Shown here piece after piece: positions 6,054-24,672 of a stretch of DNA of 64,000 nt. The stretch covers positions 930,001 to 994,000 of the forward strand of contig NZ_KI911557.1 of NCBI RefSeq assembly GCF_000515215.1, in the 5' to 3' direction. Numbering within the stretch: the first letter of the stretch is position 1; each line of letters begins with the position of its first letter. The notes beneath the pieces are model-generated. The model was given only the letters and a program-made list of their open reading frames with translations. It had not been told where the DNA came from and made no database searches. Source of the stretch: Methylomonas sp. 11b (GTDB taxonomy: Bacteria > Pseudomonadota > Gammaproteobacteria > Methylococcales > Methylomonadaceae). Made by a program: the position numbers and the translations under genes.

Positions 6054-8186
6054 TTAAAACCCGGATTCGCGTACCAGCACCGTCGCGACTTGCCGGACAA
6101 GACGATGCAACAGACTAGTGGCCGGCGTATCCAGTCTGACACTACCACGCCTTTCTCCCGGAAAATGTGCGAGGTTCTGACTCTCAGCCTCCGGCCTTAA
6201 GATGATGCGGTAAACGGCGCTTTCCGGCACAGCTTGTTGCTGCGCATCGGACCGGGCAGCAATATCGCCGCCGTGCATCGAAGCCAACATCGGCGGAACC
6301 CGAGCGGCCCCGCCTTGATCGATACGCTCTACCCGGCAAATTATCGGCGACGTTCCCGGTTGATCGGGATAAAACACCGCACCGTCGGCCTGCCCTGCCG
6401 CTTGTAAATCCTCTTCGGCCACGTAGGCTTCGATCAGTTGACTACGCGGATCGACCACAATCAATAAGGCCTCGCCTTCCTTCAACCACTGTCCCTCTTG
6501 CGCTTGCTGATTTAAATCCAAAGCCAATCCGTCAAACGGTGCTTGTATCGTTAACTGGGTTTGCTGATGCCGAAAACCGGCTTGCTTCGCGCCGGCCGAT
6601 TCCAGTTCCTTCAGTAACACCTGCCGGCGCTGATTCAAGTTTTGCTCCAATCCCTGATATGCCAGTTGCCATTCGACCAACTGCCCTTCCAGCGAGGAAT
6701 TGCGGGCTTGAAAATCCAGTTCGCGCGAACTTAGTTGCGCCAACAACTCGCCGCTTTTCACCGCTTGTCCGGTTTTGACCTGCCAGGCGTCCAGGCGCGC
6801 CGCGGTTGGCAAATAGATTTCGGCGTAACGCTCCGCCTTACTCAGTGCTGGCGCATTGACATGGCCTTGCCACGGCACAACCAAAACCGCGATGCCCAGA
6901 ACTAATAGCAACAGAAAGGTTCGACTCCGCGGACTAGTCCAAACATCGGGTCCCAGGTTTTTCCAGGCCGCCAATTCAGACCAAATCGGCCGCAGAATAA
7001 ACCACCCTACTTCCACCGCCATCATCAACAGCCCTAGTAGCTTAAAGAAAAAGTGGTAGACCAGTAGCGCGATGCCCAGAAACAGAAAGAAACGATACAA
7101 CCAGGTAAACCAGGCGTAGCCGATAAAAAACCAGTGCCAGCGTTTCGATAACGATTCCGGCGGCAGTTGATCCAGTCCAAATAGCAAACGCCGCAAATGC
7201 CAGCGGTTGTAGGCAAATGCGCGTGGTTGCAGATTTTCGATTCCCAACCAGTCGGCCAACAAATAATAACCATCGAAGCGCATGAACGGACTCAGATTGA
7301 TGGCCAGCGTCATGATCCAGGTCGAGGTTGCCAATAAAAACACCCCGCTGCGTAACGGACCATCCGTCAGGAAGCTCCAGGCCAAGGCCGCAAATACCGC
7401 CAAGCCCAACTCGGCGGCAATCCCAGCCCCGGCAATCGCTACCCGTTGCCGACGCGAGCTGAGTTTCCAGGTTTCGCTGGCGTCGGTATACAGCATTGGA
7501 TACATCACCATGAACGCTACGCCCATGGTCGGCACGCGGCAACCATAGCGATGCGCGGTCAAGGCATGACCAAATTCATGTAGCGTCTTGGCCAGCATTA
7601 AAGCCAAAAAATATTGCGCCAACCCGGACCAATTGAAAAAGTGCGGAAATGTCGCCAAGAAGCGTTCCCATTGCCGGGACAGTAAAAACCCGGCCAGCAG
7701 CGCGCAACCCATCAACAACGCGGCGAACCGCCCACTGTAAATCCAGGCCAAGCGCGGATACAGCCAAGCCAGTAAGGCATCAGGTTTTAACAAGGGAATT
7801 TTAAAAAACAGATAATTATGCAGCAACCATTGCGCCCAGCTTTGCTTGCGCATCGCCACCTGTTGCCGCAGCCGTTGCAGCCCGGCATCGCCGCTCATGC
7901 GCAGCAGGTTGTTATTCAACAAGAATTGAGCAAATTCGCCGACCTGACTTGTATCGATATGTAAAGTGGTTTCGCGGTTCACGGCTTGGGCAATCGCTTC
8001 CGTTTGTCCCAAGGCCCAGCGCGCCAGAATTTCGAATTCTTGCCAGCCGATCCGAAAAAACCGGTTATTGGCCGGATCGTGCAAGGTCCAGGTCGGCGTA
8101 CCATCGAAACCTTGCGGTCCGGGCAGACAATGCAACTCTTCGCGCAGCGGCACCAGGGCCGACACGGTCTCTACAACCCCAGCCAT
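6054..8186 (-). CDS. PqqD-like / M50 zinc protease / HlyD fusion membrane protein
   Basis: A 710-residue protein with three parts. Residues about 10-100 look like a PqqD-type small winged-helix domain (the fold used to bind leader peptides in RiPP systems). Residues about 150-395 are a polytopic M50 (site-2 protease type) domain with HEFGH at 203-207 and NLSPFMRFDG at 297-306, supplying the expected zinc ligands and glutamate. Residues about 422-710 are a membrane anchor followed by a HlyD adaptor: lipoyl-like halves around a short coiled coil. The gene overlaps the end of the GAF/HlyD gene by 16 bp and is last in the operon. Such M50-HlyD hybrids are known as families of unclear role. I infer it recognises, trims or passes on the giant surface protein encoded in the same run. 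Confidence 0.85.
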   Translation of the reverse strand: MAGVVETVSALVPLREELHCLPGPQGFDGTPTWTLHDPANNRFFRIGWQEFEILARWALGQTEAIAQAVNRETTLHIDTSQVGEFAQFLLNNNLLRMSGDAGLQRLRQQVAMRKQSWAQWLLHNYLFFKIPLLKPDALLAWLYPRLAWIYSGRFAALLMGCALLAGFLLSRQWERFLATFPHFFNWSGLAQYFLALMLAKTLHEFGHALTAHRYGCRVPTMGVAFMVMYPMLYTDASETWKLSSRRQRVAIAGAGIAAELGLAVFAALAWSFLTDGPLRSGVFLLATSTWIMTLAINLSPFMRFDGYYLLADWLGIENLQPRAFAYNRWHLRRLLFGLDQLPPESLSKRWHWFFIGYAWFTWLYRFFLFLGIALLVYHFFFKLLGLLMMAVEVGWFILRPIWSELAAWKNLGPDVWTSPRSRTFLLLLVLGIAVLVVPWQGHVNAPALSKAERYAEIYLPTAARLDAWQVKTGQAVKSGELLAQLSSRELDFQARNSSLEGQLVEWQLAYQGLEQNLNQRRQVLLKELESAGAKQAGFRHQQTQLTIQAPFDGLALDLNQQAQEGQWLKEGEALLIVVDPRSQLIEAYVAEEDLQAAGQADGAVFYPDQPGTSPIICRVERIDQGGAARVPPMLASMHGGDIAARSDAQQQAVPESAVYRIILRPEAESQNLAHFPGERRGSVRLDTPATSLLHRLVRQVATVLVRESGF

Positions 8187-9514
8187 TGCCGCACACCGGA
8201 CAGCGGTCGCCGAAACAGGTAATAAAACAAAGTCACCCGTTGGCCGTAAAGCTTGGCTGTACCTTTCAGACCGATGCGCGGCAATGGCTCCGCAGCCGCC
8301 AATCGGGCCTTGACCCGATACGCCAACACCTGATCGGTGCCGACTTCGGCCTGGTAGCTGCGCGAATACACCTGAGCATCCAGAGGGTGTTGCGGATCGA
8401 TGTTCAAAAACATCACCGCTTCGGCACCATCGGCCAGTTCGATAAAATCGGCGACCGGCACCCGCATTTCCAGTTCCACTCGCGTCGGATCGGCCAGATT
8501 CAATATCCGTTCGCCCAAGGCCACCGGCCGGCCGATCCAGTCGTGTACATCGCTGAAAATTGCCACGCCGGCATGCGGCGCCCTGATTTGCGAGCGTGCC
8601 AACTGTTCCGCCAGATACTCCACCTCGGCGGCGTGCTGCTCCATTCGGCCTTTCAGCACCGTCATTTCCGCCTTGCTGTCGGCATCGAACATGGCCTGCT
8701 GGGCGGTCTTGCGGTATTCGGCTTCCGATACCGCCAACACTTTACGCGCAACTTCCAGCCGATTGGCAATATCGGTATTTTCCAAGGTTAGCAATAATTG
8801 ATCGGCAGCAACGGCTTGATTGGGTTGAATCTGAAAGGTATCGACCACGCCTTCCAGAGGCGCGCGAATCACCGTCGGTTGGGCGGCAATCACTTCGGCT
8901 GGGGCCAGCACCGACAGCCTTACCGGAATCAATAACAGTAAGATTACTGCCACAGCCCAACGTTTAAGAGCGGTGAGCGTGTAAAGACCGCGCCACCAGG
9001 GCTTACGCGGCTGCAAAGCCCGCCAGGCATGGGCATAGGCATCGCTAAGTTCGGCCAGCAACACCGCTTCCCCTTCCTGCCACGCTTGCTCGCGCGCCAA
9101 TAGCCATCCGCCCAGTGTCCGACCCTGAACTTTCAGCGGCAGCCATAAACCGCAGACCGGCAGCCATTGCTGCCACTCTATCCGCAAGCTCTCCGGTAAA
9201 TCATCGGCATTTAATAATTGATAAGTGGAATTATTGCCGGTTTGAAACTGCCGCCGACAAACGTCGTTCAACCAGACGATATAAGGTGCGTGCATATCGA
9301 GTTGGGCGATACCGGATACCGCCGCCACCGGTTGCATCGGTCTATCCAACCACAGCGCGGCTTGGCGGTATTCCACCAAACTGCGACTCTCGTTGACGAT
9401 GACAAAACCTAAGGCTGCTAAATCTTCGGCGGCACGCGCCTTGCGTTGCAGCTGTAATAGCAGTGCCAGCCCCCGCAACTGGCGTTGCTGAGGGTCTTCT
9501 TGTTGCACAGCCAA
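8171..9514 (-). CDS. GAF-like / HlyD family secretion adaptor fusion
   Basis: A 447-residue protein. Residues about 30-168 resemble a GAF-type sensor domain on the cytoplasmic side. One transmembrane helix follows at about 187-205, then a periplasmic HlyD/membrane-fusion region with split lipoyl motifs (IRAPLEGVVDTFQIQPNQAV and IRAPHAGVAIF), a coiled coil of about 60 residues and a beta-barrel part. The start is a TTG at 9514, one base after the preceding stop, with AAGG at good spacing; a GTG at 9508 is an alternative. Adaptors like this bridge inner-membrane exporters and TolC-type channels. A GAF domain on an adaptor is unusual and could make transport respond to a ligand or redox state. 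Confidence 0.82.
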   Translation of the reverse strand: MAVQQEDPQQRQLRGLALLLQLQRKARAAEDLAALGFVIVNESRSLVEYRQAALWLDRPMQPVAAVSGIAQLDMHAPYIVWLNDVCRRQFQTGNNSTYQLLNADDLPESLRIEWQQWLPVCGLWLPLKVQGRTLGGWLLAREQAWQEGEAVLLAELSDAYAHAWRALQPRKPWWRGLYTLTALKRWAVAVILLLLIPVRLSVLAPAEVIAAQPTVIRAPLEGVVDTFQIQPNQAVAADQLLLTLENTDIANRLEVARKVLAVSEAEYRKTAQQAMFDADSKAEMTVLKGRMEQHAAEVEYLAEQLARSQIRAPHAGVAIFSDVHDWIGRPVALGERILNLADPTRVELEMRVPVADFIELADGAEAVMFLNIDPQHPLDAQVYSRSYQAEVGTDQVLAYRVKARLAAAEPLPRIGLKGTAKLYGQRVTLFYYLFRRPLSGVRQWLGL

Positions 9515-9515
9515 A

Positions 9516-10283: not shown

Positions 10284-11872
10284 CACGATTTGCCTGCCCC
10301 TGCCGCTGCTTCACTGGTATTTTCCGGCTGCGGATCGTCAGTCGCTTGCACCGGGTAATGCCCGTGGTTCCATTCCTGATCGATGGCTTCAATGGCATTG
10401 GCCAAGGTATCCACAGAGTCATCTGCCATCGTCGCCGGCAACGGATCAAAACCCAAGGACACATACAGTTTGCCCAAGGCATCTTGAGACTCGGCATAGG
10501 CCTGGCGGCGCTGCAATTCCGACAAGACCGAATCCACCGACACCCGAATCCGCTCCACGGAACTCATCGCTTCGGTCAATTCGCTATTCAGTACATGATG
10601 ATGAATTTTTTGATTAACGTCGTCCAATTCGGAGCTACGTTGGTATTGCTTGTCCGCCAAGGCCAGTTGTTGCTGTGCCAGATGAACCTGAGTCAGAATC
10701 GCCATGTGCGCGGCCAAGCGCCGCGAATGCGCCAAGGATTCCTGGGTTTCGGCGGTGGCGATCGCTTGCGGCGCGGAGAGCAATTCGAACAGATTTTTGG
10801 AAATCTGCGTACCGATCTCACCCCAACTTTGGTTTAACAGATAAGAGTTGGAATCGTAATTGCCGCCCAACTGCACTTCCACGCCGGGCAATAAACGCAG
10901 CATGGCTTTTTTGACTTCGGCTGAGCCGATGCGGGTCTGATACATTTCCTGACGTAGTTCCGGCCGCAATTGCAGGGCCAATTCACCCATTTTATCCATG
11001 TCTATTTGCGGTTTGACGACATCCGGCCACGGGTTGACGGCATCGTCCGCCAGCTTAAAGTCCTGATTAGGCGGCAAATTGATCAAACCCGCTAACTCGG
11101 ATTTGGCCATTTGTTGCTGCTCCAGCAATCCTTCCAAGCGGCGGACAATTTCCAGCAGGCTTTTTCGATAACGTAGCGCGTCCAGCGGTGAACGTAGTTT
11201 TTCGGCCTCGGCCTGTTCGGCCAGCGCCAACGCATGTTGCGCCTCAGCGAGCACCGGCTGAATTCTGGCCGTCATCCGTTGCGCGCTCAACGCCCGCCAA
11301 TAGGCGCTACGTACATCTTTCATTAAATTGTGGCTGACTTTGCGACGGCTCTCGGCAGTGACCAAGGCCTTGTTGCCTTCCTGCTGCGCGCGGAAATAGC
11401 TGACGCCAAAATCCAGAATGTTCCAGCGCAAACTTAAATCACCCATGAAACGGCTACGATCCTGAGAAGTGGAAGTTTCCAACGATTCCCTACCGGTGGA
11501 GATAGAACGACTGTTGGAGGCATTGTAATTATCTCGACTTCTGTAACCGGCCGAAGCCACCACATCCGGCAGCAAATCGAAGCGTGCCAAGGTCGCCTGG
11601 CCTTCCGCCACCGCGCGTTCCATCATTTTCACCCGGTGATCCAGATTATATTTCAGCGCACGGGACATGGCTTGATACAAAGTCAGCGGCTCGGTCAGCG
11701 GCTCCTGTTGCTGAAACAGCTTGGCCTGATCGCTACCGATCTGACTTTGCCGTTCCTGTTGGGTCAGCGGCGAAGGCGCTAACGAACAACCGCTCAGCAA
11801 CACGATACTCATTGCCATCGCCAGCTTACTGGGGGCAAACCGCTCTAGCGGCCGCGAAAGATATTTAGCCAT
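10283..11872 (-). CDS. TolC-like outer-membrane efflux lipoprotein
   Basis: A 529-residue protein of the outer-membrane efflux family. It starts with a lipoprotein signal peptide whose lipobox is LLSGC with the cysteine at residue 29, followed by two long helical repeat halves typical of TolC trimers (heptad-rich segments around ALALAEQAEAEKLRSPLDAL and HLAQQQLALADKQYQ). It would form the outer-membrane exit duct for a type I-like secretion route. The ATG at 11872 has an AGGAA site 6 bases upstream and lies 24 bp after the stop of the giant surface-protein gene. This close linkage suggests that the giant protein is its cargo. Confidence 0.88.
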   Translation of the reverse strand: MAKYLSRPLERFAPSKLAMAMSIVLLSGCSLAPSPLTQQERQSQIGSDQAKLFQQQEPLTEPLTLYQAMSRALKYNLDHRVKMMERAVAEGQATLARFDLLPDVVASAGYRSRDNYNASNSRSISTGRESLETSTSQDRSRFMGDLSLRWNILDFGVSYFRAQQEGNKALVTAESRRKVSHNLMKDVRSAYWRALSAQRMTARIQPVLAEAQHALALAEQAEAEKLRSPLDALRYRKSLLEIVRRLEGLLEQQQMAKSELAGLINLPPNQDFKLADDAVNPWPDVVKPQIDMDKMGELALQLRPELRQEMYQTRIGSAEVKKAMLRLLPGVEVQLGGNYDSNSYLLNQSWGEIGTQISKNLFELLSAPQAIATAETQESLAHSRRLAAHMAILTQVHLAQQQLALADKQYQRSSELDDVNQKIHHHVLNSELTEAMSSVERIRVSVDSVLSELQRRQAYAESQDALGKLYVSLGFDPLPATMADDSVDTLANAIEAIDQEWNHGHYPVQATDDPQPENTSEAAAGAGKS

Positions 11873-11896
11873 AACAAGTTCCTGTTTAAATGAATT

Positions 11897-14800
11897 TCAT
11901 GCGGCATCCCGCGGTTCGGCGAACAAACGCGCCAGATTTTCCAGCAAGGCATCGGCATCCTGGTGCGTACGCTGCGTACCGAAAGCTTGCAACTGCGCGC
12001 TAAGCGGCATTTTCCCCAGTTGAGCGCGCGGCTCGCCGCCGGCCGGCCGGCTCTGATTAGGCCGGCCTTGACCGCCCCGACCTTCGCCACCCGGCCGGCC
12101 ATCGCTACCGTTTTGCCGTTGTCCCGATTGTTGTTGAGGCTTCAACACGACGGTAATCACAGCCTGGTTACCCTTGCCGTCGGTCGCGGTAATTTTAACT
12201 ACCGTTCTCTCACCGCTGCCTTCCTTCAGGCTCAGACTGCCGGTCGCGGAATCGAAGCGCACCCAGGAAGGCAGACTGGCACCGTCGGCTTGAGCCGCCT
12301 GAAAACTGACGCCGGTACTGGTATCCAAACCCAACAAGGCTTCGGCGGGTATGGTGAAACTGTTATTGCTACCACTATCGAGTTGAGCCTCCATTTGCAG
12401 CGAGGTGGTTTGCGTGCCGGTGGAAGACGTGCCCGAGTCGCCGAAGCTGCTCGAGAAAATCGAAGGGCCGAAACCGAAGCTGCCGCCAGCACCGCTACTG
12501 CCGCCCAAACCTCCCCCTAATCCGCCGCCCGCGCTCAACGCGCCGGAGCCTCCCGATCCGCCCCCTGGGCCGGTCGGCGCGCCGCCCGCGCCAAGGCCGG
12601 TACCGGTGTTGATCGGCTGTATCAAGTTGCTCGGGATCTGACTGCCTGTCGTCAACGAACCACTGCTGAAGCCGCCTGATGAGCTGGAGTTAAACTCCAC
12701 GGTTTGCGTGGCATTGGTGGCATTGACACTCGCCACTGCGAGGGTGGCCGTTGAACTGACGGTCTCTACCTTACCCAGACCATCGGTATAGCTGGCGGTA
12801 ACGATAATGGTTTTATCAACATCCGCTTGGGTCAGAACCAAGCTGGAACCGGTCCCCAGGATGTTGCCGTTACCATCTGTCCAGGTGTAGACGATGCTAC
12901 CCAGACCATCAGCGTCTGCGAGCGTAGTGCTGACGGAGAGCGTTTCGCCCACGACAGCAGTACCGCTGATGGCCACACTACCCGTCGGCGCATCGTTAGC
13001 ATCGGTCAGAGCCACCGTCAGGACTGTGTCGGAGCTGTTACCGGCTGCATCGGTAGCGCGCACCGTAACGGCATGGCTGGCCGTGGCTTCGTAGTCCAAC
13101 TGGCTACCGTCGGCCACGCTGACCTCGCCGCTGGCGGCGTCGATAACGAAGCGGCCGTTGGCGTTGTCCACCAAGCTATAAACGACGCTTAGGGTGTCGG
13201 TGGCGCTAACTGAGCCCACGACCGTACCATTGGCCGAATTTTCCGCCACGCCGAGGGTTCCGACAGGGGGTGTCGGCGCACTGGTATCCAGATTGAAGGC
13301 CAGGGCGGCGGAGTTGCCGGAGGGATTGCCTGCCGTATCGGTCTGGCGGACGATTACCGATTTGGCGCCATCGCCGGACAGATTAAAGCTGCTGCCACTG
13401 CCGGCGGTCCAGGAGGTACCGCCGTTGCTGCTGAACTCCCAACTGGCACCGGTTTCCAAACCAGTGAGGTTTACCGTGGCATTATTGGTAATGCCATCGC
13501 TATTGCTGCTGCCGTTATCCTCGGCCAGAGTTAGAGTGGGTGCGGTGGCCGAGGTGTCCAAGGTAAAGGTATAAGCGCTGGAAGAACCGGAAGTGTTACC
13601 TGTCGTATCCGTTTGCCGCAAGACTACCGATTTAGCACCGTCGCCGCTCAGCGTGAAGCTGCTGCCGCTGCCGGTGGTCCAGCTGCTGCCTCCATTGGTG
13701 CTGTACTCCCAACTAGCGCCGCCCTCCAAGCCGGAAACGGTGATCGCGCCAATGTTGGTAATCCTGTCGCTGTTGCTGCTACCGCTATCGGAGGTCAGAG
13801 CCAAACCAGGCGCTGCGGGAGCCGTAGTGTCGACCACGATGTCCTTATTGGCGCCCAGCGAATTGGCGGCGCCTGGCGAAGCCAGGGTTAAAACAGCAGC
13901 CAAGCTGGTCGAGCTATCGAGAATAGCCCCGCCGTTCAGCGCCAGAGACGAGGTCGAACCATAGTCCAGATCGGCGGACGTGTCGCCAGCCTGCACCGTG
14001 TAGCTGAAGCTCAGCGTGGTGCCGCCGGATCCGCCGGCGTAGGTCGCAGTCTGCCCGGTATTCAAAGTCAGGGTCGGCACTCCCGTCACCGTCACCGACC
14101 GGTCGAAGGTAACGGTGATCGTCACTGTGTCGCCTGCATTGTAAGAGCCGTCGGCAGTCGTTGCCGATACGCCGGTCACCGATGGGTTAACCACCGCCGT
14201 CAGCACCACATCGTTGCCGGTCCCGCTGGCATAGCGCACCGTGTAGATGTCGCCGTTGCTGGTCAGATCCGTACCTTCGGCCACGCTGCCGAAAATGCCG
14301 CTCGCGCCAGTTACGGCGTCGGTGCTGTCGTTGTCGATGATCCGGTAGGTGGCACCGTTGGTCGCGGTGTAGCTGTTGACTCGGCTGACGGTCAGCGAGC
14401 CGCCGTTCAAGGCAACGGTGCCGTTGACCATCACCTGGTCGAAGTCGGTGCCGCCAACCCCGCCATTGCCCGCCACGTCGATCATCGTGCTGCCGCTGAC
14501 CCGCAGGTTACCATTGACCGTCAGCGTGCCGATCCCATTGTTGACCCCGGCCACGCCCGGCGCCAGCGTCGCGCCGTCATTCATCGTCAGATTATTGCCT
14601 GAGCTGGCCGCGAAGATGCTGCCCGTGCCGCCCAGCGTCGCCCCCGACGCCACCGAAAGGCTGCTGGTGGCGCCCAGCGAGCCGGTAACGTAGAGCGTGC
14701 CCTCCGACACCGTGGTGGTGCCGCTATAGGTCGTCGCGCCGCTCACGGTCAGCGCGCCGGTTCCCGTCTTGGTCAGATTGAAGGCGCCGTCGATGGTGTT

Positions 14801-17800
14801 GCTGAGGGTGGCGGCGTATCCAGACCCGACATTGATGGTGGCGCTGCCGCTCAAGGCGATATAGTTGCCGAAACTCCCCGACGCCACGAAGGTCAAGGTC
14901 GTGCCGGCGGCCAGATCGACGCCGGACGCCGCCAGGGCGCCGGTGGAGCCGGCGATGACCGTACCGGCGGAAATGGTGGTGCCGCCGTTGTAGGTGTTGG
15001 TTCCCGACAGGGTCAGCGTACCGGTGCCCTGTTTGGTGAGCGACCCGCCGCCGGAACCGCTGATGGCGCCGCTGAACTCCGTTGATGTGTTGTTGCCGCC
15101 GGCCCTCAGGGTGCCGACCAGCGCGATGGCGCCGGCCCCGGCGATGGATCCCACCGTTTCCGTGCCCGACACGTTCAGCGTGCCGCCGTTCAACACCGTA
15201 ACCGCCGAGGCGTCGGCGATGGCGCTGTTGCCGCTAAGCGCCAGCGTACCCGCCGAGACGGTGGTGGAGCCGGTGTAGGTGTTGGCCCCCGACAGGGTCA
15301 GAGTGCCGGTGCCGAACTTGTCGATCCCGCTGGTATTGGTGGAGGAGATCACTCCGGAAAACGTGGTATTGGTGTTGTCGCCGCCCGCCGTCAACCTGTA
15401 ACTCAGTACAACGTTGCCGGCGCCGGCCAACGAACCTATGGTTTCGTTCCCGCCGTTCAAAGTCAGGGTAGCGCCGCTGTCCACGGTCACCGCGCTGCTA
15501 TCGCCGATGCTGCTACCGCCTTCCAACGTCAATCCGCCGGCGGACACGGTGACCGCGCCGGTGTGGGTATTGGTCGCGGTCAGCGTCAACGTCCCAGCGC
15601 CGGCCTTGTTCAGCGCCTCCGCGCCGCTGAGAATCCCCGACAGGGTGACGGCATTGGCGTTGGTGATGGTCGCCGACGTGCTGGGATCACTGTCATCCAG
15701 AAGGGTGATGTTGTTGGACACCGTCGTGCCGGTGCCGGTGATGGCCAGGGTGCTGCCGCCCTCCACCGTCACGGCGCCGGTTCCCAGATTCATGGCACCG
15801 GTGGAACTGCCGGTGATGCTCACCCCGTTTGCGCCGCGAATGGTGGTGCCGCCGGAATGGCTGTTGTTTCCCGACAGCGTCAGCGCTGGGCCGCCGGTTT
15901 TGGTCAGCGACCCCGTTCCGCTGATGATGCCTGACAGCGTGGCGGTGCCGTTGGTGACGCTGATCGTGCCGTTGCCGCTTCCCAGCACGATGGCATTGTC
16001 GATTGTGCCCGCGTTGGCGAGGTTGAGCGTGCCGCCGTTCAGCGTGACGGCTCCGCCAAGCAGCCGGCTGTCCGAAGCCACCGACACTGTGCCCGCCGTC
16101 ACCGTCAAGGTGGAGGCGGCGCTGGAGTTGCCGGTATTGCTCAAAGTCAGCGTGCCGGCCCCGGCCTTGGTCAGCGCTGCCGATCCGCTGAGCTGCCCCG
16201 ACAAAGTGGCGGCGCTGGCGTTGGTAATGGTGGCGTCGGCCAACAGCGCGATGGCGTTGCTGAAGGTGTTGCCGGCGCTGGTGATCGTCAGGCTACCGCC
16301 GTTCAACGTCAGCGTGCCGCCGACCATCGTCGTGGCTGTCCCTACCGACAGCGTGCCGCCGGTCACCGTCAGTGCCGTGGTGGTCGCGGCGGAGTTCGAC
16401 GTGCTGGACAGGGTCAAGGTGCCGGCCCCGCTCTTGGTTAAAGTCGTCCCCGCTCCACTGATGGCGCCCGACAATGTAACGGCGGTGCTATTGTCTAGTG
16501 TGGCGTTACCCGACAATGTCAGGGCGTTGTCGATGGTAGTCGCGCCGGTGACGATTAGCGTCGTGCCGCCGACCAAGGTCACCGCGCCGGAGCCGAGGTT
16601 GGCGTCGGTCGCCAGACTCAACGTGCCTGCGGAAACCGAGGTATTGTTGTAAGAGTTACTTCCCGACAGCACCAGGGCACCGGCACCGGCCTTAGTGATA
16701 TTGAAACCGCCGCCGATATTGCCGCCGATGGTCAATTGGTCGGACGTAACGCCCAGAATTGTAGCGCCGTTCAGCGTCACGTTGCCGGACAGGATGTTGG
16801 TGCCGCTGACGTTGTAAATCGCCCCCGCGCTGGATATGCCAGTCCCCGCCGCCGACACTGCTTCGGCCACCGTGACGCCGCCCTGTAAGCCCAACGCGGC
16901 GCCGCTAGCCACCGTCGTCGAACCGGCAGTGGTTCCCAGCGCATTGTTATGCGCCGCCACCAGCGTGCCGTCGTTGACAGCCGTCGCGCCGCTGTATGTG
17001 TTGTCGCCGGACAGGGTCAACGTTCCCGCGCCCGCTTTCGTCAAAGCGCCGGTGCCGCTGACGATCCCCGATAAAGCAACCGTATTGGCATTGCTAATCG
17101 TGCCGGCGCCGGTCAGCGCGACGGCATTGCTAACGGTGACCCCGCTGCCGGTGACGGTCAGGCTGCCGCCGTTCAGCGTCACAGCCCCAGCCCCCAAGTT
17201 AGTCGAGTCGGCGACGGTCAGGGTTCCGCCGATGACGGTGGATGAGGCAAGAACGTTCGTCCCCGACAGCGTCAGCTCACCGGCCCCGGCCTTGGTCAGG
17301 GCGTTGTTGCCGGTAATGTTCCCCGACAGAGTGACGGCGTTGGCATTGGTGATGGTGGCGCCCGCCGACATCGCGAGGTTGTCGTCTAGGGTGCCGGCGG
17401 AAGTGATGGTCAGATTACCGCCGCTCAAGCTGACGGTGGCACTGTCCGAGCCCAGGTTGGCATCGCCGTCGATGCTCAGGGTGCCGGCCGCCACCGTAGT
17501 ATTGCCGGAATAGCTGTTGCTGCCGCTCAGGACTTGCGTGCCCGCCCCGCTCTTCACCAAATTGCCGGCGCCAGTGATATTTCCCGATAGGGTCAGCGTG
17601 TCGCCCGATCCGTTGGCGACGGTCAGCGTCTTGCCGCTGGCGATAGCAATGTCACCGCCGACGGTGATGCTGTTGACCACATCGGCGTCCAGCGCAATGT
17701 TCTCGCCGATTGTAACGCTGGATCCCAGCGTTACGGTCCCCAAGCCAGAGGCGAAACTGATCGTGGCGCCGCCCGCCCGGTTGGCGATACCGACGGCCTC

Positions 17801-20800
17801 GCGCAGGCTGAGGCCGGTACCGTCCGCCTTTTCCGCAGCGTAAGTGCTGCCGCCGTCCGCGTCGTCGGCGGTGGTATCGACGACCAACGTGTTACTGACG
17901 GTGATGGTAAAGCTCTGGTCGTAGTTGTTGTCGCCGTCGTTCACCCGGATCACCACCGTGTAGTTCCCTGGCGTGGTCGTGGAAGGGCTGGCCGCCCTTA
18001 ACGTGGCGCCGCTGATATTGAACAGGTCGTAAGTCGCCCCCGAGGTGTTGGCGTCGACCGACACGATCGAGTAGGTCGGACCGCCGCCATCGACATCGGT
18101 ACGGCTCAGGGAGCCGATCGCTATATTGCTGCCGCTGTCGTAGGTGGATGCGGTGGTGGCGCTCAATGCGATAGCGGTCGGCGCGTCGTTGACGGCGGAT
18201 ACTGTGAGTGTCTGACTCGCGGCGCTACTGTTAGCGGATCCATCGTTAACCGCCACGCTGACTGTTCGATTAGCGGTATTCGGATTGTCCGAACCATCGG
18301 TGTAGGTCACCGCCCGCAAGGCGGCTTGCCACTGGGCCAAGGTTGCCGTTGCGCCGGCAGAGGTCAGAGTCAGAACGCCGGTTCCCGAGTTATAGGCTGC
18401 CGAGATATTTCCCATCGTCGAGCCGTCGTTGGTAAACCCGAGCGAGTCTTCGGCGGACTGAAATCCGCCGGTCAGCGAAACAGTGGCGCTAACCAAGGTC
18501 GCGCTATCGGCATCGGCGACAGTCAGTCCCGGCACGACGGCAACGGCCACCTGTTCGGTGGCGGCAGTCGTGCCGCCGGCACCGCCCAAGGTCGGTATGG
18601 CGAAAGCGTTGCTTGCAGTAATACCGTTGCCCGTGGCATCGGATATGTCGGTATTGCCGATAACGGTATTCCAGTCATCGGCGACAGCCAAGTTGTAAGT
18701 GCTGGCATCGGTAGCGCTCGTGCCGTTTTTGTTGATAATCAAGTTGATCGCCGCTTTATCGGTAGCGCTAAGCGTAATGGTAAAAGCGGTGGCGGAGCTA
18801 AGCTCGACGTTTGAAGTATCCGTTAAGGTATAAGTCGCGCCACCCAGACCGGTAAACGTCAGTTTATTGGCCGTAATGTCGTTTGCCGCACCGCTGGCTG
18901 CCACTAAATGAGTACCAGTCACCGCCAGAACTCCGGTACTGGCATCGTAGGTGGCTGAGGTGACGGTTGGCATTTGGACGTTGCTAACTGTCACTGCGGT
19001 AGTAGGGGTCGCGGTGTCGCCCGAGGTGTGATTAGCATCCCAGTCGTCGGCCGCCGCCAAATTGTAGGTGGTACCGCTCACCGCCGTGACACCGGATTTA
19101 TTCAGCAAGCCGTTGATTGCCAGTTGGTCGGCCGCGTTCAGCACCACGGTAAACTGGGTAGCGCTATCGCGCTCGACGTCGCTACTGGTGAGCGTGTAAG
19201 TGTTGCCGCCCTCGCCTTTCAGGGTCAATTTCGAGACGGCGATGTCGTTGAGAACGCCGGCCTTGGCTTCGAAGTCGGTACCTGTCACCACTAGGGTGCC
19301 GGTGCTGGCATCGTAGGTGCTGCCGGTGATAGTCGGTACGCCGCTGACGGTAATACCATTGATCAACGATTGGATGTTGGTGCTGCCTATCACGCTGTCC
19401 CAATCGTCGGCGGCGGACAGGTTGTAGGTGGTGCCGCCCGACGAGGCGGTGCCGTTCTTGTTCAATAAGGCCTCGACACCAGCAATATCGGCTCCCGCCA
19501 AGGTCACTGAAAACGAGGTAGCATCGGTAATCTCGACGTTCGCGGTGGCGGCGGTCAAGGTATAAGTGGCGCCGCCCTGGCCGGTGAAGGTCAGTTTGTT
19601 GACGGTGATGTCGTTAGCAGCGCCGACGGTTCTAACGAGGTTGGTGCCGGTCACGGACAGGACGTGGGTACTCTCGTCGTAGGTGACACCGGTAATGGTC
19701 GGCGTTTGTACGTTGCTGACGGTCACGGTGTTGCCGGTCGTGTCGGCAGGCGCCGACGCGGTAGCGTCCCAATTCAGAGCACCCGCCAAGTTATAGGCGC
19801 TAGCGCCGACGGCGGATGTGCCGTTTTTGTTCAACAAGCCTTCGACGTTAATCTGGTCGGTGGCGTTCAAGGTCACCGCAAAACTGGTGGCGCTACTGGC
19901 GGTCACGTTGGCGCTGGTCAAAACATAAGAGTTGCCACCTTCTCCGGTCAACGTCAGTTTCGACACATCGATCGTATCGCCGGTAGTCATGTTGGCGCCG
20001 GTGACAGTTAGCACGTTGGTGCTGGCGTCGTAAGTCGCAGAGGTGATTGAAGGTCCGCTAACCGGAGAACCGACCTGGATATTGTTAACCCCCAACCAGG
20101 AGAGGCTATCGTCGTTTAGATGTAGCCTGATCTCATCGACATTCAAGAAGGTACTACCCATTTCGTCGCCTTGGTTGAGATGCACGAAGGCGCTCGCGGT
20201 ATTTCCGCTAAAGGTGATGCTGCCGACCGAAACGCCGCCGTCAAAGGCTTCGGCTTTAACGGTAGCGCCGGAGTAATTGCCCCAATTGTGTACATCCAAG
20301 GCTTGTAGCGAGAAATTGCTACCGTCCGCGGATTTGATGACGAAGCCGTAAAACGCCGTACTAACACCATCTTCGTAAGTCAGCATATCCAGCGAGTTGT
20401 AATTGACAAACCGCAGATCGGCCTGCTGGTTTATGCCACTATCCACCGTGTAGATATCTAGATTCAAATCCGAAATCACGATCGAGCCGCCCTCGCCGTC
20501 CCGTGCAATGTCGTCGGACGTGATATCGCTACTATTAGTCGAGAATGTCAATGTCGGATTGCTACTGAGCGCCAACGGCGGCGTCCAGGCGGCCGTGCTA
20601 CCCGGTCCGTCTAGCCATTCGGTTCCGGCGTTACCGCCCAAACCGGCGGTACCGGCGTTGCCGCCCGAGGAGGTTCCGCCGGTACCGCCATCTCCGTAAT
20701 TAGAGGTGTGGGTAATGGTAGCGTTTTCGTATTTGAACGCGCCATTGTTGTATATTCCGCCGACGCCGGCTCCGCCATCGCCGCCATCGACACCGTAACC

Positions 20801-22402
20801 ACCCGCGCCGCCGCCGCCGGCGCCGAGATTGTTGGTGATCGAGGTCGACGCCATGTAGACCGTTGCGCCGGAACCAATCGCTAAAGCACCGGCGCCGATC
20901 CCACCCCGACCGACCACCGCGCTGCCGTTACCGCCGGAACCGTATCCACCGCCGCCGCCGCCGATAAAACTCAGTCCGCCCGAGCCGGCGGTTCCCCCGG
21001 TTCCGCCTGCATTGGCGCTACCGCTGGTTCCGCCCGCGCCGCCGGCGCCACTGACGCCGCTACTGCCTCCCCGACCTTTTGCGCTGGAGACCGAGGTGAA
21101 GCCACCGTCGCCACCCGTGCCCGCCGAACCTGAAGCTCCTGGCGTAGAGGCATTGAATGCGCCTCCCGACCCGCCTACTGTTGTCCCCCAACCCGCGCCG
21201 CCGCCACCGCCGTAACCGTAAGTTCCGTTGTCGCTACCACCGTTGCCGCCACCGCCGGCCGCGACGTTGCCGGTAATCGTCGAATGCAGGAAAGTCACTT
21301 TGGTTCCGGCGCCGGTCACCGAGATTCCGGCACCTAGTGCATCGCCGCCGTTGACACTGTTATACGCACCGCCGTTGCCCGAGACCAAGCCATGGGTAAT
21401 GGTCAACCCGTCCAACGACACGGTACCGCTGGTGATCGAAAACACCCGGCTGGTGTAGTTGGCGTCGACGGTGACGTCCGCGCTGCCGTTGTCGTCTAGG
21501 TCGCCGTCTATCGTCAAATTTTGGCCGATACTTAACTGGCCGCTGGACAAGGTAATCGTCATCCCAGCGTTGAATGTAATCGTGTCGCCGGACGACGCCG
21601 ACCCAATCGCGGCGCGCAACGATCCGGCACCACTGTCGTTATTGTTGATCACTGTGACCGTCGCCAGCGTGTAATCGTAATCGGCCATGGCCGAAGCGGA
21701 AAACGCCGCGGGCGCCAAGACGTCGCCGGTGCGCACCTCCAGCGTCCAATCGCCGCCGGCACCCGTGCGGTTGTCAGACACCGCCACGTCGGCCCCGGTC
21801 AGATCGGCCAGGGTCCGGGCAAACGCGCTACCCTCGGTGCCACGGCCCAGGTTGCAGGAATAGATTTGCAAGTCTCCGTCTGCCGCCAAGGCCTTGCCTA
21901 TCATATCGAGTTGCGCGGCGTAGTCGGCTATCGAATCATTGTTCAGCCAGGCATTGCCCAACCAAATATTGGCCTCGCTGCCCTCGGCAACGATCGAAAT
22001 CGCCGAAATATCGCGGCGATCAGCCAGATAATCGGCCATTTGCCGGACACCGTCGCGGCCGACCTCTAACATCACGATTTCGGCGCGCGGATCAGCGCCG
22101 GCCAACAAGGTATCCGCATCCCTTACCCTACTGTCGACGAAGATGACGGTGGTAGATTGATCGGCTGTCGCTTCCGGAAAATTGCAGGCCGCCGCGGCAT
22201 CCAGCAAATGTTGAGCGTCCAATGCCGACGGCGCCTGGTCGGCGGTCGGTGCCGCGTCGGCCTGAGCTGCGTCGGCGCTGACCGCCGCCGCGCCGTCGAA
22301 CAGAATGCGCGGCTCCAAGGCCCAGGCATGTAGCGTTGGGGGCTTCGGACGATGGCGTGCCTCGGCGGAGCTGGCCGTACGAATACGCGCGAATAGTTTC
22401 AT
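11897..22402 (-). CDS. Giant repetitive surface protein: LEPR-XLL motif, DUF4347, beta-strand repeats
   Basis: A 3,501-residue protein. The ATG at 22402 is preferred over an in-frame TTG at 22417. Order of parts: basic N-terminus with LEPRILFDG at residues 29-37 (LEPR-XLL motif); DUF4347, about 22150-21670; predicted right-handed beta-helix and a glycine-rich segment to about 20450; four about 120-residue IPT-like repeats; a cadherin-like domain; eleven clear autotransporter-associated beta-strand repeats (KAGAGTLTLSG type); two near-identical Ig-like domains; cadherin/VCBS-like domains; then a Gly/Ser and Gln/Arg/Gly-rich tail. There is no classical signal peptide and no C-terminal autotransporter barrel or RTX block, so export must use another route, probably the TolC/HlyD/M50 genes downstream. 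Likely role is adhesion or a cell-surface layer. Confidence 0.9.
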   Translation of the reverse strand: MKLFARIRTASSAEARHRPKPPTLHAWALEPRILFDGAAAVSADAAQADAAPTADQAPSALDAQHLLDAAAACNFPEATADQSTTVIFVDSRVRDADTLLAGADPRAEIVMLEVGRDGVRQMADYLADRRDISAISIVAEGSEANIWLGNAWLNNDSIADYAAQLDMIGKALAADGDLQIYSCNLGRGTEGSAFARTLADLTGADVAVSDNRTGAGGDWTLEVRTGDVLAPAAFSASAMADYDYTLATVTVINNNDSGAGSLRAAIGSASSGDTITFNAGMTITLSSGQLSIGQNLTIDGDLDDNGSADVTVDANYTSRVFSITSGTVSLDGLTITHGLVSGNGGAYNSVNGGDALGAGISVTGAGTKVTFLHSTITGNVAAGGGGNGGSDNGTYGYGGGGGAGWGTTVGGSGGAFNASTPGASGSAGTGGDGGFTSVSSAKGRGGSSGVSGAGGAGGTSGSANAGGTGGTAGSGGLSFIGGGGGGYGSGGNGSAVVGRGGIGAGALAIGSGATVYMASTSITNNLGAGGGGAGGYGVDGGDGGAGVGGIYNNGAFKYENATITHTSNYGDGGTGGTSSGGNAGTAGLGGNAGTEWLDGPGSTAAWTPPLALSSNPTLTFSTNSSDITSDDIARDGEGGSIVISDLNLDIYTVDSGINQQADLRFVNYNSLDMLTYEDGVSTAFYGFVIKSADGSNFSLQALDVHNWGNYSGATVKAEAFDGGVSVGSITFSGNTASAFVHLNQGDEMGSTFLNVDEIRLHLNDDSLSWLGVNNIQVGSPVSGPSITSATYDASTNVLTVTGANMTTGDTIDVSKLTLTGEGGNSYVLTSANVTASSATSFAVTLNATDQINVEGLLNKNGTSAVGASAYNLAGALNWDATASAPADTTGNTVTVSNVQTPTITGVTYDESTHVLSVTGTNLVRTVGAANDITVNKLTFTGQGGATYTLTAATANVEITDATSFSVTLAGADIAGVEALLNKNGTASSGGTTYNLSAADDWDSVIGSTNIQSLINGITVSGVPTITGSTYDASTGTLVVTGTDFEAKAGVLNDIAVSKLTLKGEGGNTYTLTSSDVERDSATQFTVVLNAADQLAINGLLNKSGVTAVSGTTYNLAAADDWDANHTSGDTATPTTAVTVSNVQMPTVTSATYDASTGVLAVTGTHLVAASGAANDITANKLTFTGLGGATYTLTDTSNVELSSATAFTITLSATDKAAINLIINKNGTSATDASTYNLAVADDWNTVIGNTDISDATGNGITASNAFAIPTLGGAGGTTAATEQVAVAVVPGLTVADADSATLVSATVSLTGGFQSAEDSLGFTNDGSTMGNISAAYNSGTGVLTLTSAGATATLAQWQAALRAVTYTDGSDNPNTANRTVSVAVNDGSANSSAASQTLTVSAVNDAPTAIALSATTASTYDSGSNIAIGSLSRTDVDGGGPTYSIVSVDANTSGATYDLFNISGATLRAASPSTTTPGNYTVVIRVNDGDNNYDQSFTITVSNTLVVDTTADDADGGSTYAAEKADGTGLSLREAVGIANRAGGATISFASGLGTVTLGSSVTIGENIALDADVVNSITVGGDIAIASGKTLTVANGSGDTLTLSGNITGAGNLVKSGAGTQVLSGSNSYSGNTTVAAGTLSIDGDANLGSDSATVSLSGGNLTITSAGTLDDNLAMSAGATITNANAVTLSGNITGNNALTKAGAGELTLSGTNVLASSTVIGGTLTVADSTNLGAGAVTLNGGSLTVTGSGVTVSNAVALTGAGTISNANTVALSGIVSGTGALTKAGAGTLTLSGDNTYSGATAVNDGTLVAAHNNALGTTAGSTTVASGAALGLQGGVTVAEAVSAAGTGISSAGAIYNVSGTNILSGNVTLNGATILGVTSDQLTIGGNIGGGFNITKAGAGALVLSGSNSYNNTSVSAGTLSLATDANLGSGAVTLVGGTTLIVTGATTIDNALTLSGNATLDNSTAVTLSGAISGAGTTLTKSGAGTLTLSSTSNSAATTTALTVTGGTLSVGTATTMVGGTLTLNGGSLTITSAGNTFSNAIALLADATITNASAATLSGQLSGSAALTKAGAGTLTLSNTGNSSAASTLTVTAGTVSVASDSRLLGGAVTLNGGTLNLANAGTIDNAIVLGSGNGTISVTNGTATLSGIISGTGSLTKTGGPALTLSGNNSHSGGTTIRGANGVSITGSSTGAMNLGTGAVTVEGGSTLAITGTGTTVSNNITLLDDSDPSTSATITNANAVTLSGILSGAEALNKAGAGTLTLTATNTHTGAVTVSAGGLTLEGGSSIGDSSAVTVDSGATLTLNGGNETIGSLAGAGNVVLSYRLTAGGDNTNTTFSGVISSTNTSGIDKFGTGTLTLSGANTYTGSTTVSAGTLALSGNSAIADASAVTVLNGGTLNVSGTETVGSIAGAGAIALVGTLRAGGNNTSTEFSGAISGSGGGSLTKQGTGTLTLSGTNTYNGGTTISAGTVIAGSTGALAASGVDLAAGTTLTFVASGSFGNYIALSGSATINVGSGYAATLSNTIDGAFNLTKTGTGALTVSGATTYSGTTTVSEGTLYVTGSLGATSSLSVASGATLGGTGSIFAASSGNNLTMNDGATLAPGVAGVNNGIGTLTVNGNLRVSGSTMIDVAGNGGVGGTDFDQVMVNGTVALNGGSLTVSRVNSYTATNGATYRIIDNDSTDAVTGASGIFGSVAEGTDLTSNGDIYTVRYASGTGNDVVLTAVVNPSVTGVSATTADGSYNAGDTVTITVTFDRSVTVTGVPTLTLNTGQTATYAGGSGGTTLSFSYTVQAGDTSADLDYGSTSSLALNGGAILDSSTSLAAVLTLASPGAANSLGANKDIVVDTTAPAAPGLALTSDSGSSNSDRITNIGAITVSGLEGGASWEYSTNGGSSWTTGSGSSFTLSGDGAKSVVLRQTDTTGNTSGSSSAYTFTLDTSATAPTLTLAEDNGSSNSDGITNNATVNLTGLETGASWEFSSNGGTSWTAGSGSSFNLSGDGAKSVIVRQTDTAGNPSGNSAALAFNLDTSAPTPPVGTLGVAENSANGTVVGSVSATDTLSVVYSLVDNANGRFVIDAASGEVSVADGSQLDYEATASHAVTVRATDAAGNSSDTVLTVALTDANDAPTGSVAISGTAVVGETLSVSTTLADADGLGSIVYTWTDGNGNILGTGSSLVLTQADVDKTIIVTASYTDGLGKVETVSSTATLAVASVNATNATQTVEFNSSSSGGFSSGSLTTGSQIPSNLIQPINTGTGLGAGGAPTGPGGGSGGSGALSAGGGLGGGLGGSSGAGGSFGFGPSIFSSSFGDSGTSSTGTQTTSLQMEAQLDSGSNNSFTIPAEALLGLDTSTGVSFQAAQADGASLPSWVRFDSATGSLSLKEGSGERTVVKITATDGKGNQAVITVVLKPQQQSGQRQNGSDGRPGGEGRGGQGRPNQSRPAGGEPRAQLGKMPLSAQLQAFGTQRTHQDADALLENLARLFAEPRDAA
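13290..13830 (-). repeat. Two tandem Ig-like domains within the giant protein
   Basis: Two consecutive units of about 90 residues share SGDGAKSV(V/I)(L/V)RQTDT and GASWE(Y/F)S(T/S)NGG(S/T)SW segments. They resemble bacterial Ig-like domains that stack into stalks in large adhesins. Their closeness at protein level suggests recent duplication. Confidence 0.7.
14390..17690 (-). repeat. Autotransporter-associated beta-strand repeat array in the giant protein
   Basis: Eleven recognisable copies of the (L)TK(A/S/T)G(A/T)G(T/A)L(T/V)LSG-x-N-x-Y/S pattern recur at about 60-110 residue spacing, usually followed by a strand ending in GTL. The array predicts a long right-handed beta-helical rod. In known proteins this repeat is mostly found in type V autotransporters, whose barrel is absent here. 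Confidence 0.8.
18590..20070 (-). repeat. Four IPT-like repeats with an NKNGT signature
   Basis: Four units of about 120 residues, each starting TI/TSATYDAST-x-L-x-VTG and containing ANDI-x-(V/A)-x-KLT(F/L)-x-G-x-GG-x-(S/T)Y-x-LT, a (L/I)(L/I)NK(N/S)G block and a YNLA-x-A-DDW-x block. They look like Ig-fold modules. The array is encoded by about 1.5 kb of repetitive DNA. Confidence 0.75.
20560..21280 (-). repeat. Glycine-rich low-complexity segment of the giant protein
   Basis: About 240 residues dominated by GG, GGAGG and GGNGG runs with interspersed Ser, Thr and Ala, interrupting a predicted beta-helix. The DNA is correspondingly CCG/CCA-rich on the plus strand, which creates long spurious frames there. 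Such regions are usually flexible loops. Confidence 0.7.
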
Positions 22403-22430
22403 GGTCTTAGCCCCCAAAATCGACGATACA

Positions 22431-23285
22431 TCAAACGGATTTCACCAGCGGCCCGGCGACGGCCGGTTGCGCGGAAACGACGTGGGCGCGGCTGCCACGG
22501 CCGTCACGCCAGAACGCCATATTGGCGTACTGCTCGAACAGATCCGGCGGCAGAATGGTAGCCCGGTTCTCAAGGCTGACTTGCGGCCGAATGCTGTGCA
22601 GGCCAGACAAACCTAAATTGTTGTCGAAGGCCGGCGCGTCGTATTGCAGATTCGCGAAATCGTGCGGATACGCGGGCTCGCCAAGAAAATCGTAAATCAA
22701 CGGCACCACTTTCTCGGGCGCCCGTGCCAGCAAGTCGTATTCGACGACCAGTAGCGAAGCCGCCTGTTCGCCGTAAAATGCTTCCTTCAGCGCCGACCAA
22801 GCAAAGCCGACCAAGCGATTGCGCTGCGCCAAGGTTTCCACCCGGCTATACACCGTATTGCGCTCGGCATCATCGGCAAACAAGCGGCTGTTTTCGTAGG
22901 GACTGGCCCGGTACAGGCGTTCCAGACTGTCCATGACCCAGGCCACGTTGCGGACACAGGCGATAACCTTGGCGTCCGGGAACAGATCCAGCAAGGCAGG
23001 CAGGCGGCCGCTCCAGGCGCGATTGGTGTCGAACACCACATCCTTGTCGGTTTCGGCTGCGTAGTAACTATCGAACAGCCCGCGCAACAACCGGCGACGC
23101 TGCTCGGTGGTCACGACCGGCCCCCACTCGCTGCCGGCGCTGACTTGATCGAGCAATCCCGAAAAAAACGCGCCGACCGGACTGGTCATGCCGGCATGGA
23201 AACGCGGATTCTGTTTCAAAATGGCGGCCAACAGCGTTGAACCCGAACGCGGCAGGCCGGAAATAAAGTGATAACGGTGGCTCAA
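22431..23285 (-). CDS. Sulfotransferase family protein
   Basis: A 284-residue enzyme with the PAPS-binding loop GLPRSGST at residues 10-17 near the N-terminus and the later conserved VIACVRN-x-AWVMDS segment that matches the 3'-phosphate-binding region. It would transfer sulfate from PAPS to a hydroxyl of a sugar, a tyrosine or a small molecule. The start is TTG at 23285; no ATG or GTG lies upstream before an in-frame stop, and the protein start matches family members (xxRYHFISGLPRSGSTLL). No clear ribosome site is visible. It is first in the run and ends 13 bp before the giant gene's earliest possible start (28 bp before the preferred ATG). It may modify that protein or an attached glycan, but this is inference. 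Confidence 0.85.
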   Translation of the reverse strand: MSHRYHFISGLPRSGSTLLAAILKQNPRFHAGMTSPVGAFFSGLLDQVSAGSEWGPVVTTEQRRRLLRGLFDSYYAAETDKDVVFDTNRAWSGRLPALLDLFPDAKVIACVRNVAWVMDSLERLYRASPYENSRLFADDAERNTVYSRVETLAQRNRLVGFAWSALKEAFYGEQAASLLVVEYDLLARAPEKVVPLIYDFLGEPAYPHDFANLQYDAPAFDNNLGLSGLHSIRPQVSLENRATILPPDLFEQYANMAFWRDGRGSRAHVVSAQPAVAGPLVKSV

Positions 23286-24279: not shown

Positions 24280-24284
24280 CGACG

Positions 24285-24620
24285 ATGAAAACCACACTCG
24301 ACGCGCCAATGATAGGCGATTTGCATAGCCGGAATTTTTCGCCATTTTTGGGCCAACCCTGTCTATTAGAAAACGGGACGATCACGATCGCCACGGTCTT
24401 GGAACGGGTGGACGAAAAACCGGCGGCCCGCCAGCCGACCGCCGATTCGCGTCGCACGCCGTTCGCGCTATTGCTGAAAGGCGACGCCGATTGCCCATAT
24501 CTGGACGGTGTGTTCACTCTACGAATTGGGGGCGCGCTCGAGGTATCCGGCATTTATCTCACTCGCGTTTTAAATACCGGTCCACAGCCGGCTAGCCTGT
24601 TTCAGGCGGTTTTCAACTGA
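24285..24620 (+). CDS. DUF6916-like hypothetical protein
   Basis: A 111-residue protein with a compact alpha/beta pattern and a C-terminus (...PASLFQAVFN) that fits the DUF6916 family as I recall it (F-x-x-LGQ near the start, RxPF-x-LLL-x-G in the middle, final AVFN). No function is known. It starts 5 bp after the tail-collar stop and precedes the GNAT gene, an arrangement often seen for tail-collar loci. Recognition is from memory of the motif pattern, so the family name is tentative. Confidence 0.65.
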   Translation: MKTTLDAPMIGDLHSRNFSPFLGQPCLLENGTITIATVLERVDEKPAARQPTADSRRTPFALLLKGDADCPYLDGVFTLRIGGALEVSGIYLTRVLNTGPQPASLFQAVFN

Positions 24621-24622
24621 TA

Positions 24623-24644
24623 CGGCTGCCGCGAGCGGCAGCCG
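24623..24644 (+). terminator. Strong hairpin between the DUF6916-like and GNAT genes
   Basis: Ten bases (CGGCTGCCGC) at 24623-24632 are exactly complementary to 24635-24644 across two bases (effectively a CGAG tetraloop). It begins 2 bp after the upstream stop. With no T tract it may attenuate or protect the transcript rather than terminate it fully. Confidence 0.5.
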
Positions 24645-24672
24645 GCCAGCCTAAACCCACTAGGAGGCGATA

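Follow-up and report, generated by a model that had tools for sequence, protein, structure and literature searches.

The window analysed here is a 64,000-nucleotide stretch of the genome of Methylomonas sp. 11b, which forms one contig of 5.41 Mb and is close to Methylomonas methanica R-45363 (95% identity in the M50-HlyD protein described below). Its minus strand carries, at 6054-23285, six nearly touching open reading frames (ORFs) that encode, in 5' to 3' order, a sulfotransferase, a giant repeat protein, a TolC-like lipoprotein, a short adaptor, a GAF-HlyD adaptor and an M50-HlyD protein. Counted from the M50-HlyD end to the sulfotransferase end, the junctions are a 16-bp overlap, 1 bp, a 4-bp overlap, 24 bp and 13 bp. 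A sequence-only reading of this DNA had already named these six tightly spaced genes, and we found every one at the position and on the strand it gave; its 3,501 residues for the giant are those counted from an ATG, and a TTG five codons earlier gives 3,506. The sulfotransferase, TolC-like lipoprotein and three adaptors that it had recognised fit the Pfam and TIGRFAM domains (P0002, P0003, P0004, P0006 and the HlyD half of P0001). We report that five of these genes form a conserved set that probably exports the giant to the cell surface.

M50-HlyD (P0001, 6054..8186) combines a PqqD-like N-terminus, a membrane metalloprotease and a periplasmic adaptor, the latter two matched by Pfam as M50 and HlyD. 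Its HExxH zinc site (residues 203-207, 7566..7580) is followed by the Asn, Pro and Asp expected of peptidase family M50; H203, E204, H207, N297, P300 and D305 are invariant in 45/45 homologues and PF02163 scores over its cut-off, which bears out the earlier claim that one adaptor carries an intact M50 site. The PqqD-like part was matched by Pfam in 5 of the 45 homologues and is otherwise indicated by a predicted secondary structure, presumably like that of PqqD; a fold comparison with VIA-align covered mainly residues 418-693, that is, outside the PqqD-like and M50 parts. The Pfam scan matched no ATPase domain in P0001. Judged by residues and fold, the contribution of this protein is that of a protease and an adaptor. 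The GAF-HlyD adaptor (P0002, 8171..9514; Pfam HlyD) has a GAF part, a single hydrophobic segment (176-211) and a MacA-like adaptor. Pfam did not see GAF in P0002 itself and matched it in 9/37 homologues at E <= 1; the predicted structure of P0002 shows a GAF fold. The short periplasmic adaptor (P0003, 9516..10286) is of the resistance-nodulation-division (RND)/HlyD type (TIGR01730, 121.9 bits), with C81 and C143 invariant in 29/29 sequences, and the TolC-like outer membrane factor (OMF; P0004, 10283..11872; PF02321 (OEP), 6.6e-28) is a lipoprotein whose lipobox Cys29 is invariant in 28/28.

The giant (P0005, 11897..22402), the presumed passenger, contains DUF4347 (21665..22147; PF14252, 172 bits), PATR repeats, cadherin and Big_13 domains, and only 2 Cys in 3,506 residues. 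No classical signal peptide is evident by a simple hydropathy comparison, the sole test applied, and the family scans matched no barrel family, in line with the earlier description of a giant without signal peptide or autotransporter barrel. Near its start lies the motif LEPRILFDGAA (22286..22318; LEPR-8K model NF012209), a candidate export signal, and 30 residues before its end the regular expression described below finds LSAQL (11990..12004), a candidate second address label.

The operon is widespread. Of 398 sampled Pseudomonadota genomes, 91 have a match to P0001 at E <= 1e-15, and the operon is also present on plasmids, among them those of E. coli, Azospirillum and Cupriavidus. A tree of 45 M50-HlyD proteins separates clade A (39, including the window's) from clade B (6) with support 1.0; five more clade-B loci were assigned by their low match to P0001 alone, and the 91 genomes include both clades. 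Stretches were fetched around 69 clade-A and 11 clade-B matches, chosen for the length of their contigs. The 69 clade-A loci hold GAF-HlyD in 64, the short adaptor in 60, the OMF in 50, a LEPR giant in 39 and a LEPR-or-repeat giant in 48 (repeat-type giants being called by a crude composition rule), with all four partners in 40; the corresponding counts for the 50 loci with at least 19 kb are 48, 47, 41, 37, 41 and 37. Rare co-occurrence, which would have spoken against the sequence-only reading, was not what we saw. Gene order varies, with the giant upstream, downstream, between the adaptors or on the opposite strand. For the four machine proteins, pairwise distances are correlated, with r 0.75-0.84 over 23-37 loci per pair and no control gene. 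DUF4347 (E <= 1e-8) and M50-HlyD of either clade (E <= 1e-15) co-occur more than expected by chance: both are present in 74 of the 398 genomes, one only in 17 and 19 (the 19 having DUF4347 and no M50-HlyD match) and neither in 288, the two genome lists being equated by their agreeing handles.

A tblastn search against plasmids matched 55 records, from which we fetched 18: E. coli, Cupriavidus metallidurans, Burkholderia anthina, Indioceanicola, five Azospirillum strains, A. thermophilum, Kosakonia, Niveispirillum, Magnetospirillum, Variovorax, Phyllobacterium, Eleftheria, Caballeronia and Tistrella. The whole set of passenger, OMF, short adaptor, GAF-HlyD and M50-HlyD is present in 15 of these 18 loci; in the stretches fetched, Indioceanicola is without passenger and OMF, Tistrella without OMF, and Phyllobacterium without OMF and short adaptor. 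Among 5,426 E. coli genomes, 24 matched the machine genes, and 21 of the 25 places found are on plasmids. The passenger gene of the Variovorax plasmid (L155) is 48.7 kb long and would encode about 16,000 residues.

What is new here are the terminal motifs that the giants share. Clade-A giants with differing middles have in common an N-terminal LEPRxxFDGA and a C-terminal [FL]xxQL-like motif, the latter of the form [FL][STA]xQ[LIVF] and placed about 8-40 residues from the C-terminal end. The regular expression [FLM][STARN][AEQDSTR][QE][LIVF] occurs in the last 60 residues of 39/52 giants and in the preceding 60 of 1/52; random internal 60-mers gave a mean of 0.49 per 52 and at most 3 in 200 draws (about 1% of windows of that length). 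The 52 tails, some of them near-identical pairs, derive from 58 candidate ORFs. The six removed were two unrelated ORFs at L079, another that contains masked bases, and the LEPR proteins of L083, L094 and L099, which have no motif in the last 60 residues. Removal of these three LEPR proteins favoured the count, which becomes 39/55 when the three are restored. Sixteen kept ORFs have no LEPR motif, 14 of them cut by the end of the stretch and two (L052 and L137) uncut. A strict LE[PQAR]RxxFD[GA]A-like pattern is present in 35/36 kept giants, a count that is not independent because the giants had been picked by a looser form of the same motif. An unsupervised motif search over 22 representatives reached a log-likelihood of 116.5, compared to 89.5-103.8 for eight shuffles and 85.6-99.8 for eight internal-window sets; we relied on the regular-expression counts because this excess was modest and the motifs found were shifted. 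Since the expression was composed after the same tails had been viewed, the plasmid passengers, scored with the expression fixed beforehand, provide the independent test: 11/15 match, five of the 11 being from Azospirillum. Among the tails that do not match, three differ at one position and that of Niveispirillum is without the Q/E. Three plasmid loci (L146, L156 and L159) were left out of the scoring; the neighbour at L156 has no such tail.

The N-terminal motif was also tested with the curated LEPR-XLL model NF012209. A 135-residue N-terminal piece of the giant scored 18.1 bits (E 0.0014), over the cut-off of 17; the model did not list the giant in the whole-protein scan at E <= 0.01, and in the whole-genome search it gave no match anywhere, controls included. 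A comparable N-terminal motif occurs on extracellular proteins of Planctomycetota. Both terminal motifs are absent, by a somewhat wider regular expression, from 4/4 DUF4347 proteins tested in genomes without an M50-HlyD match (G050, G090, G115 and G320, the four of the 19 such genomes that were complete and listed). DUF4347 as the address label was rejected: machine-less genomes have the domain too, and their tested proteins have other ends. Both DUF4347 proteins of the Methylomonas sp. 11b genome cluster with an M50-HlyD gene. The other DUF4347 proteins of carriers, scored with the wider expression, are mixed: those of G041, G061 and G026 have the tail motif, that of G016 has the same tail as its own locus, those of G081 and G064 have LEPR without the tail motif, and one in G102 has neither; of two proteins in G186, one is a LEPR giant whose tail is hydrophobic and the other shows neither motif, and the remainder are cut or unclear. 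A hydrophobic tail type (LRA...DPLPIL-like) is common to the giants of L124, L062 and L169, from two clade-B genomes and one clade-A genome. In the draft genome of L094, a single ORF (10877-15628) comprises a LEPR giant, then an LSAQF motif and then a short adaptor, either a fusion or a draft artefact.

These observations bear on a small-molecule reading, in which the adaptors and OMF would serve efflux of a small molecule or peptide, for example a ribosomally synthesized and post-translationally modified peptide (RiPP) processed by the M50 site, beside an unrelated giant gene. PqqD-like domains bind peptide leaders in RiPP pathways, and P0001 matches the model of the daptide HExxH protease (NF041824) with 157.1 bits, under the curated cut-off of 300. 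Like the M50 proteases of RiPP pathways (daptide, YydH/LiaK), P0001 has a weakly detected PqqD-like N-terminus and an M50 core; unlike them, it carries a HlyD adaptor half, scores below 300 and partners a giant protein. The giant recurs as a partner in operons of very different gene order, and it keeps its ends where the middle varies; with no systematic search made for small peptide genes, we regard the small-molecule reading as highly improbable.

We conclude, with a probability of roughly 60%, that the five core genes specify a dedicated machine that would export the giant repeat protein to the cell surface and process it, without a linked ATP-binding cassette (ABC) pump. For export, recognition, cleavage, motor and topology, we infer the following scheme. 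The giant, having no evident signal peptide, would be recognised by its N-terminal LEPRxxFDGA and C-terminal [FL]xxQL-like segments, and the PqqD-like part of M50-HlyD probably binds it. M50-HlyD and GAF-HlyD would be anchored in the inner membrane, with the short adaptor in the periplasm, perhaps stapled by a disulfide, such that the three adaptors and the lipoprotein OMF form a tunnel across the envelope. The GAF domain may gate or sense, and the M50 site may cleave the passenger at one of its address segments or close by. Energy would not come from a linked ABC pump; in clade A, the general SecA/SecYEG may push the chain across the inner membrane.

The suggestion of a Sec-type motor derives from the sister clade. 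The second M50-HlyD gene of the Methylomonas sp. 11b genome (C1:4359340) lies downstream of a GAF-HlyD-like gene, overlaps with the SecA-like gene that follows it and clusters with the genome's only other DUF4347 giant. The SecA-like product has 665 aa, with PF07517 at 3e-74 over its first 276 residues and METGEGKT and DEAD motifs. This clade-B locus (G000:C1:4345000-4364400; L062, L142) encodes a LEPR-like giant with a hydrophobic tail, two further genes, a GAF-HlyD-like protein, M50-HlyD, the SecA-like ATPase and a short adaptor. Of the 11 clade-B loci, 9 have a SecA-like gene adjoining the M50 gene: seven were recognised by a clear sequence match (family search also saw or completed two of these), L068 by family search alone and L069 by a weak match (6e-10); in G186 and G332, a single SecA was found in the genome. 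The clade-B system resembles that of the window in its M50-HlyD (20-22% identical to P0001), its GAF-HlyD-like adaptor and its LEPR-like DUF4347 giant, and differs in its dedicated SecA-like ATPase and in the C-terminal tails of its giants; the clade-A profile found no OMF in the clade-B stretches examined. Among 39 carriers picked by quality from the 91, 30 have one SecA, 29 of these without a listed clade-B match, and nine have two or more. Five of the nine (G000, G143, G271, G002 and G014) have a listed clade-B match; in the other four (G304, G006, G018 and G034), a clade-B gene may go unseen, as two M50-HlyD candidates were scored per genome. A second SecA as the motor of clade A was rejected on these counts.

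The sequence-only reading had placed the M50/HlyD hybrid at the inner membrane as a substitute for the pump. That part is not supported: besides the lack of a matched ATPase domain in P0001, the sister clade brings its own SecA-like ATPase, and because this enzyme lies beside M50-HlyD, we favour a Sec-type motor over M50-HlyD as the driver. A Sec-type motor is the best lead that the sequences offer for the family as a whole, and for clade A a lead rather than a demonstrated fact.

Several observations weigh against a dedicated, ABC-independent machine. M50-HlyD stands without adaptors, within the stretch fetched, in four of the 69 clade-A loci (L084, L085, L087 and L095), all in draft genomes; in a fifth locus without adaptors (L121), the contig is 3.9 kb long. 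The tail expression fails in 13 of the 52 kept tails, 11 of them by one position as judged by eye, and fails also in the dropped LEPR giants L083 and L099; the giant of G102 has a different, hydrophobic tail. The Magnetospirillum passenger has only 492 aa, so that a passenger need not be very large. Clade A has no linked motor and the 29 clade-A carriers without a listed clade-B match have a single SecA, so that the Sec step in clade A is indirect. Finally, a few loci have an ABC gene just outside the run, including that of Phyllobacterium, where a pair of type I ABC and HlyD genes follows the M50 gene at a distance of about 5 kb, and 32 of the 39 carriers encode at least one type I ABC transporter over its curated cut-off (LssB in 23, PrtD in 17 and HlyB in 9), among them Methylomonas sp. 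11b itself (C1:2091692, LssB-type).

The Phyllobacterium pair and the 32 carriers favour type I secretion with an unlinked ABC transporter of the LssB/LapB, PrtD or HlyB type, or a MsbA- or MacB-like pump, where the M50 site would only trim the passenger; so does the resemblance of Cys-poor passengers with a C-terminal signal-like motif to type I substrates. A motif scan found no ABC gene inside the run in any of the 69 clade-A loci, and no ABC ATPase was found in the stretches examined of the 15 full-set plasmid loci. A search with one ABC ATPase gave matches in 12/130 loci, all outside the run and some near it: on the opposite strand within 0.2 kb in L074, L127 and L128, 5 kb away in Phyllobacterium, and at least 0.7-0.8 kb downstream in L001-L003. 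The last three are all Methylomonas and, among the 130 loci, the only ones with the trio of ABC-2 permease, ABC ATPase and YncE-like propeller that occupies 2753-5255 (minus strand) in the window; the trio was not found in the 6 kb examined of a fourth Methylomonas locus (L006). The earlier statement that the run has no ABC ATPase is accurate for the run, the trio starting 0.8 kb downstream of M50-HlyD; as the missing pump, the trio was rejected for its restriction to L001-L003.

Seven of the 39 carriers have no type I ABC over cut-off, although three of them have sub-threshold matches (G016 and G041 up to 572 and 596 bits, G082 437 bits). The other four (G213, G298, G023 and G064) are 99-100% complete; at 1e-100 they lack any match to LssB or PrtD, and they show only 347-373-bit matches to the HlyB model that start at model position 137 or later, missing its N-terminal part; their loci (L057, L058, L059/L127 and L086) hold all five genes. 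Because these near-complete, full-set carriers have no detectable type I ABC transporter, such a transporter seems not to be a general requirement; an MsbA- or MacB-like pump or another ABC protein may still serve, and we judge the unlinked-ABC reading unlikely. The core of the sequence-only proposal, a type I-like route without an ABC pump, is strengthened by the conserved set with giants, by the finding of no ABC gene in the run and by the non-universal type I ABC.

A device for maturation or retention, in which the giant would cross by another route, the adaptor-OMF complex would anchor it and the M50 site would release it on a GAF-sensed signal, would also account for the invariant M50 active site and for a GAF fold fused to an adaptor. 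LapA-type giant adhesins are controlled by proteolytic release. A lipoprotein TolC homologue and three adaptors would, however, exceed the needs of an anchor, and the giants have no conserved ABC exporter next to them (exporters of other types were not looked for); we therefore think this device distinctly improbable and keep to the export machine.

Type I secretion pairs an ABC ATPase, a HlyD adaptor and TolC. Like type I systems (HlyB-HlyD-TolC, and LapBCE for giant adhesins), the window's system combines HlyD-family adaptors (three) and a TolC-family channel with a very large surface protein that is poor in Cys and has a signal-like motif near its C-terminus. It differs in that the run yielded no ABC ATPase, that its three adaptors are of different kinds (fused to M50 in one case and to GAF in another), that its OMF is a lipoprotein and that the giant has an N-terminal LEPR motif as well. 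With no linked ABC exporter, it falls outside the type I systems by membership; from the periplasm outward, its operation may well resemble theirs. An autotransporter (type V) does not fit, as the giant has PATR repeats but no matched barrel family, its signal peptide being judged by hydropathy only. Tripartite efflux pumps of the MacA/RND type differ in that no pump gene was recognised in the window's run and that a protein passenger is here the recurrent partner. We file the system as a variant of tripartite export. Among open-licence PubMed Central papers, without preprints, we found no published description of the operon or of the clade-B system.

The sixth gene of the run encodes the sulfotransferase (P0006, 22431..23285, minus strand; PF13469, Sulfotransfer_3), directly upstream of the giant. 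It is an optional neighbour of the machine: it was found in 4/31 Methylomonas genomes, each time 13-17 kb from a clade-A M50 gene, and a 71% identical sulfotransferase lies directly upstream of the giant in G054 (L128), where the operon order differs. Between G402 and the window, the sulfotransferases are 95% identical and the M50-HlyD proteins just 68%, which suggests that the sulfotransferase has its own history. On a plasmid of Azospirillum sp. TSA2s, a sulfotransferase followed by cysD and cysN (L153, 28531-32235) lies about 6 kb from the M50 gene. Divergent from the operon, the plus strand at 23608-25161 encodes a phage-tail-collar protein (23608..24279; PF07484, 2.2e-25), a possible accessory, followed by a DUF6916 protein and a GNAT acetyltransferase. 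Collar-domain proteins are also encoded close to the machine or to its giant in 10 carrier regions besides the window, and two Azospirillum plasmids have collar-like 'tail fiber' proteins and a GNAT protein upstream of the giant. That the giant is sulfated, or has the collar protein as its partner, is a guess.

More tentatively, both clades could represent one widespread secretion class of Gram-negative bacteria, in which a Sec-type ATPase (in clade A the general SecA, in clade B a dedicated paralogue of it) would feed LEPR-tagged giants into a conduit of M50-HlyD, GAF-HlyD, adaptor and OMF, an intramembrane protease would process them in transit, and LEPR-XLL and [FL]xxQL would act as address labels. 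If the export reading of the operon is right, many giant surface proteins that now lack an explanation of their export would gain a route and two short address labels. The source of energy could then be tested directly, SecA being a concrete candidate.

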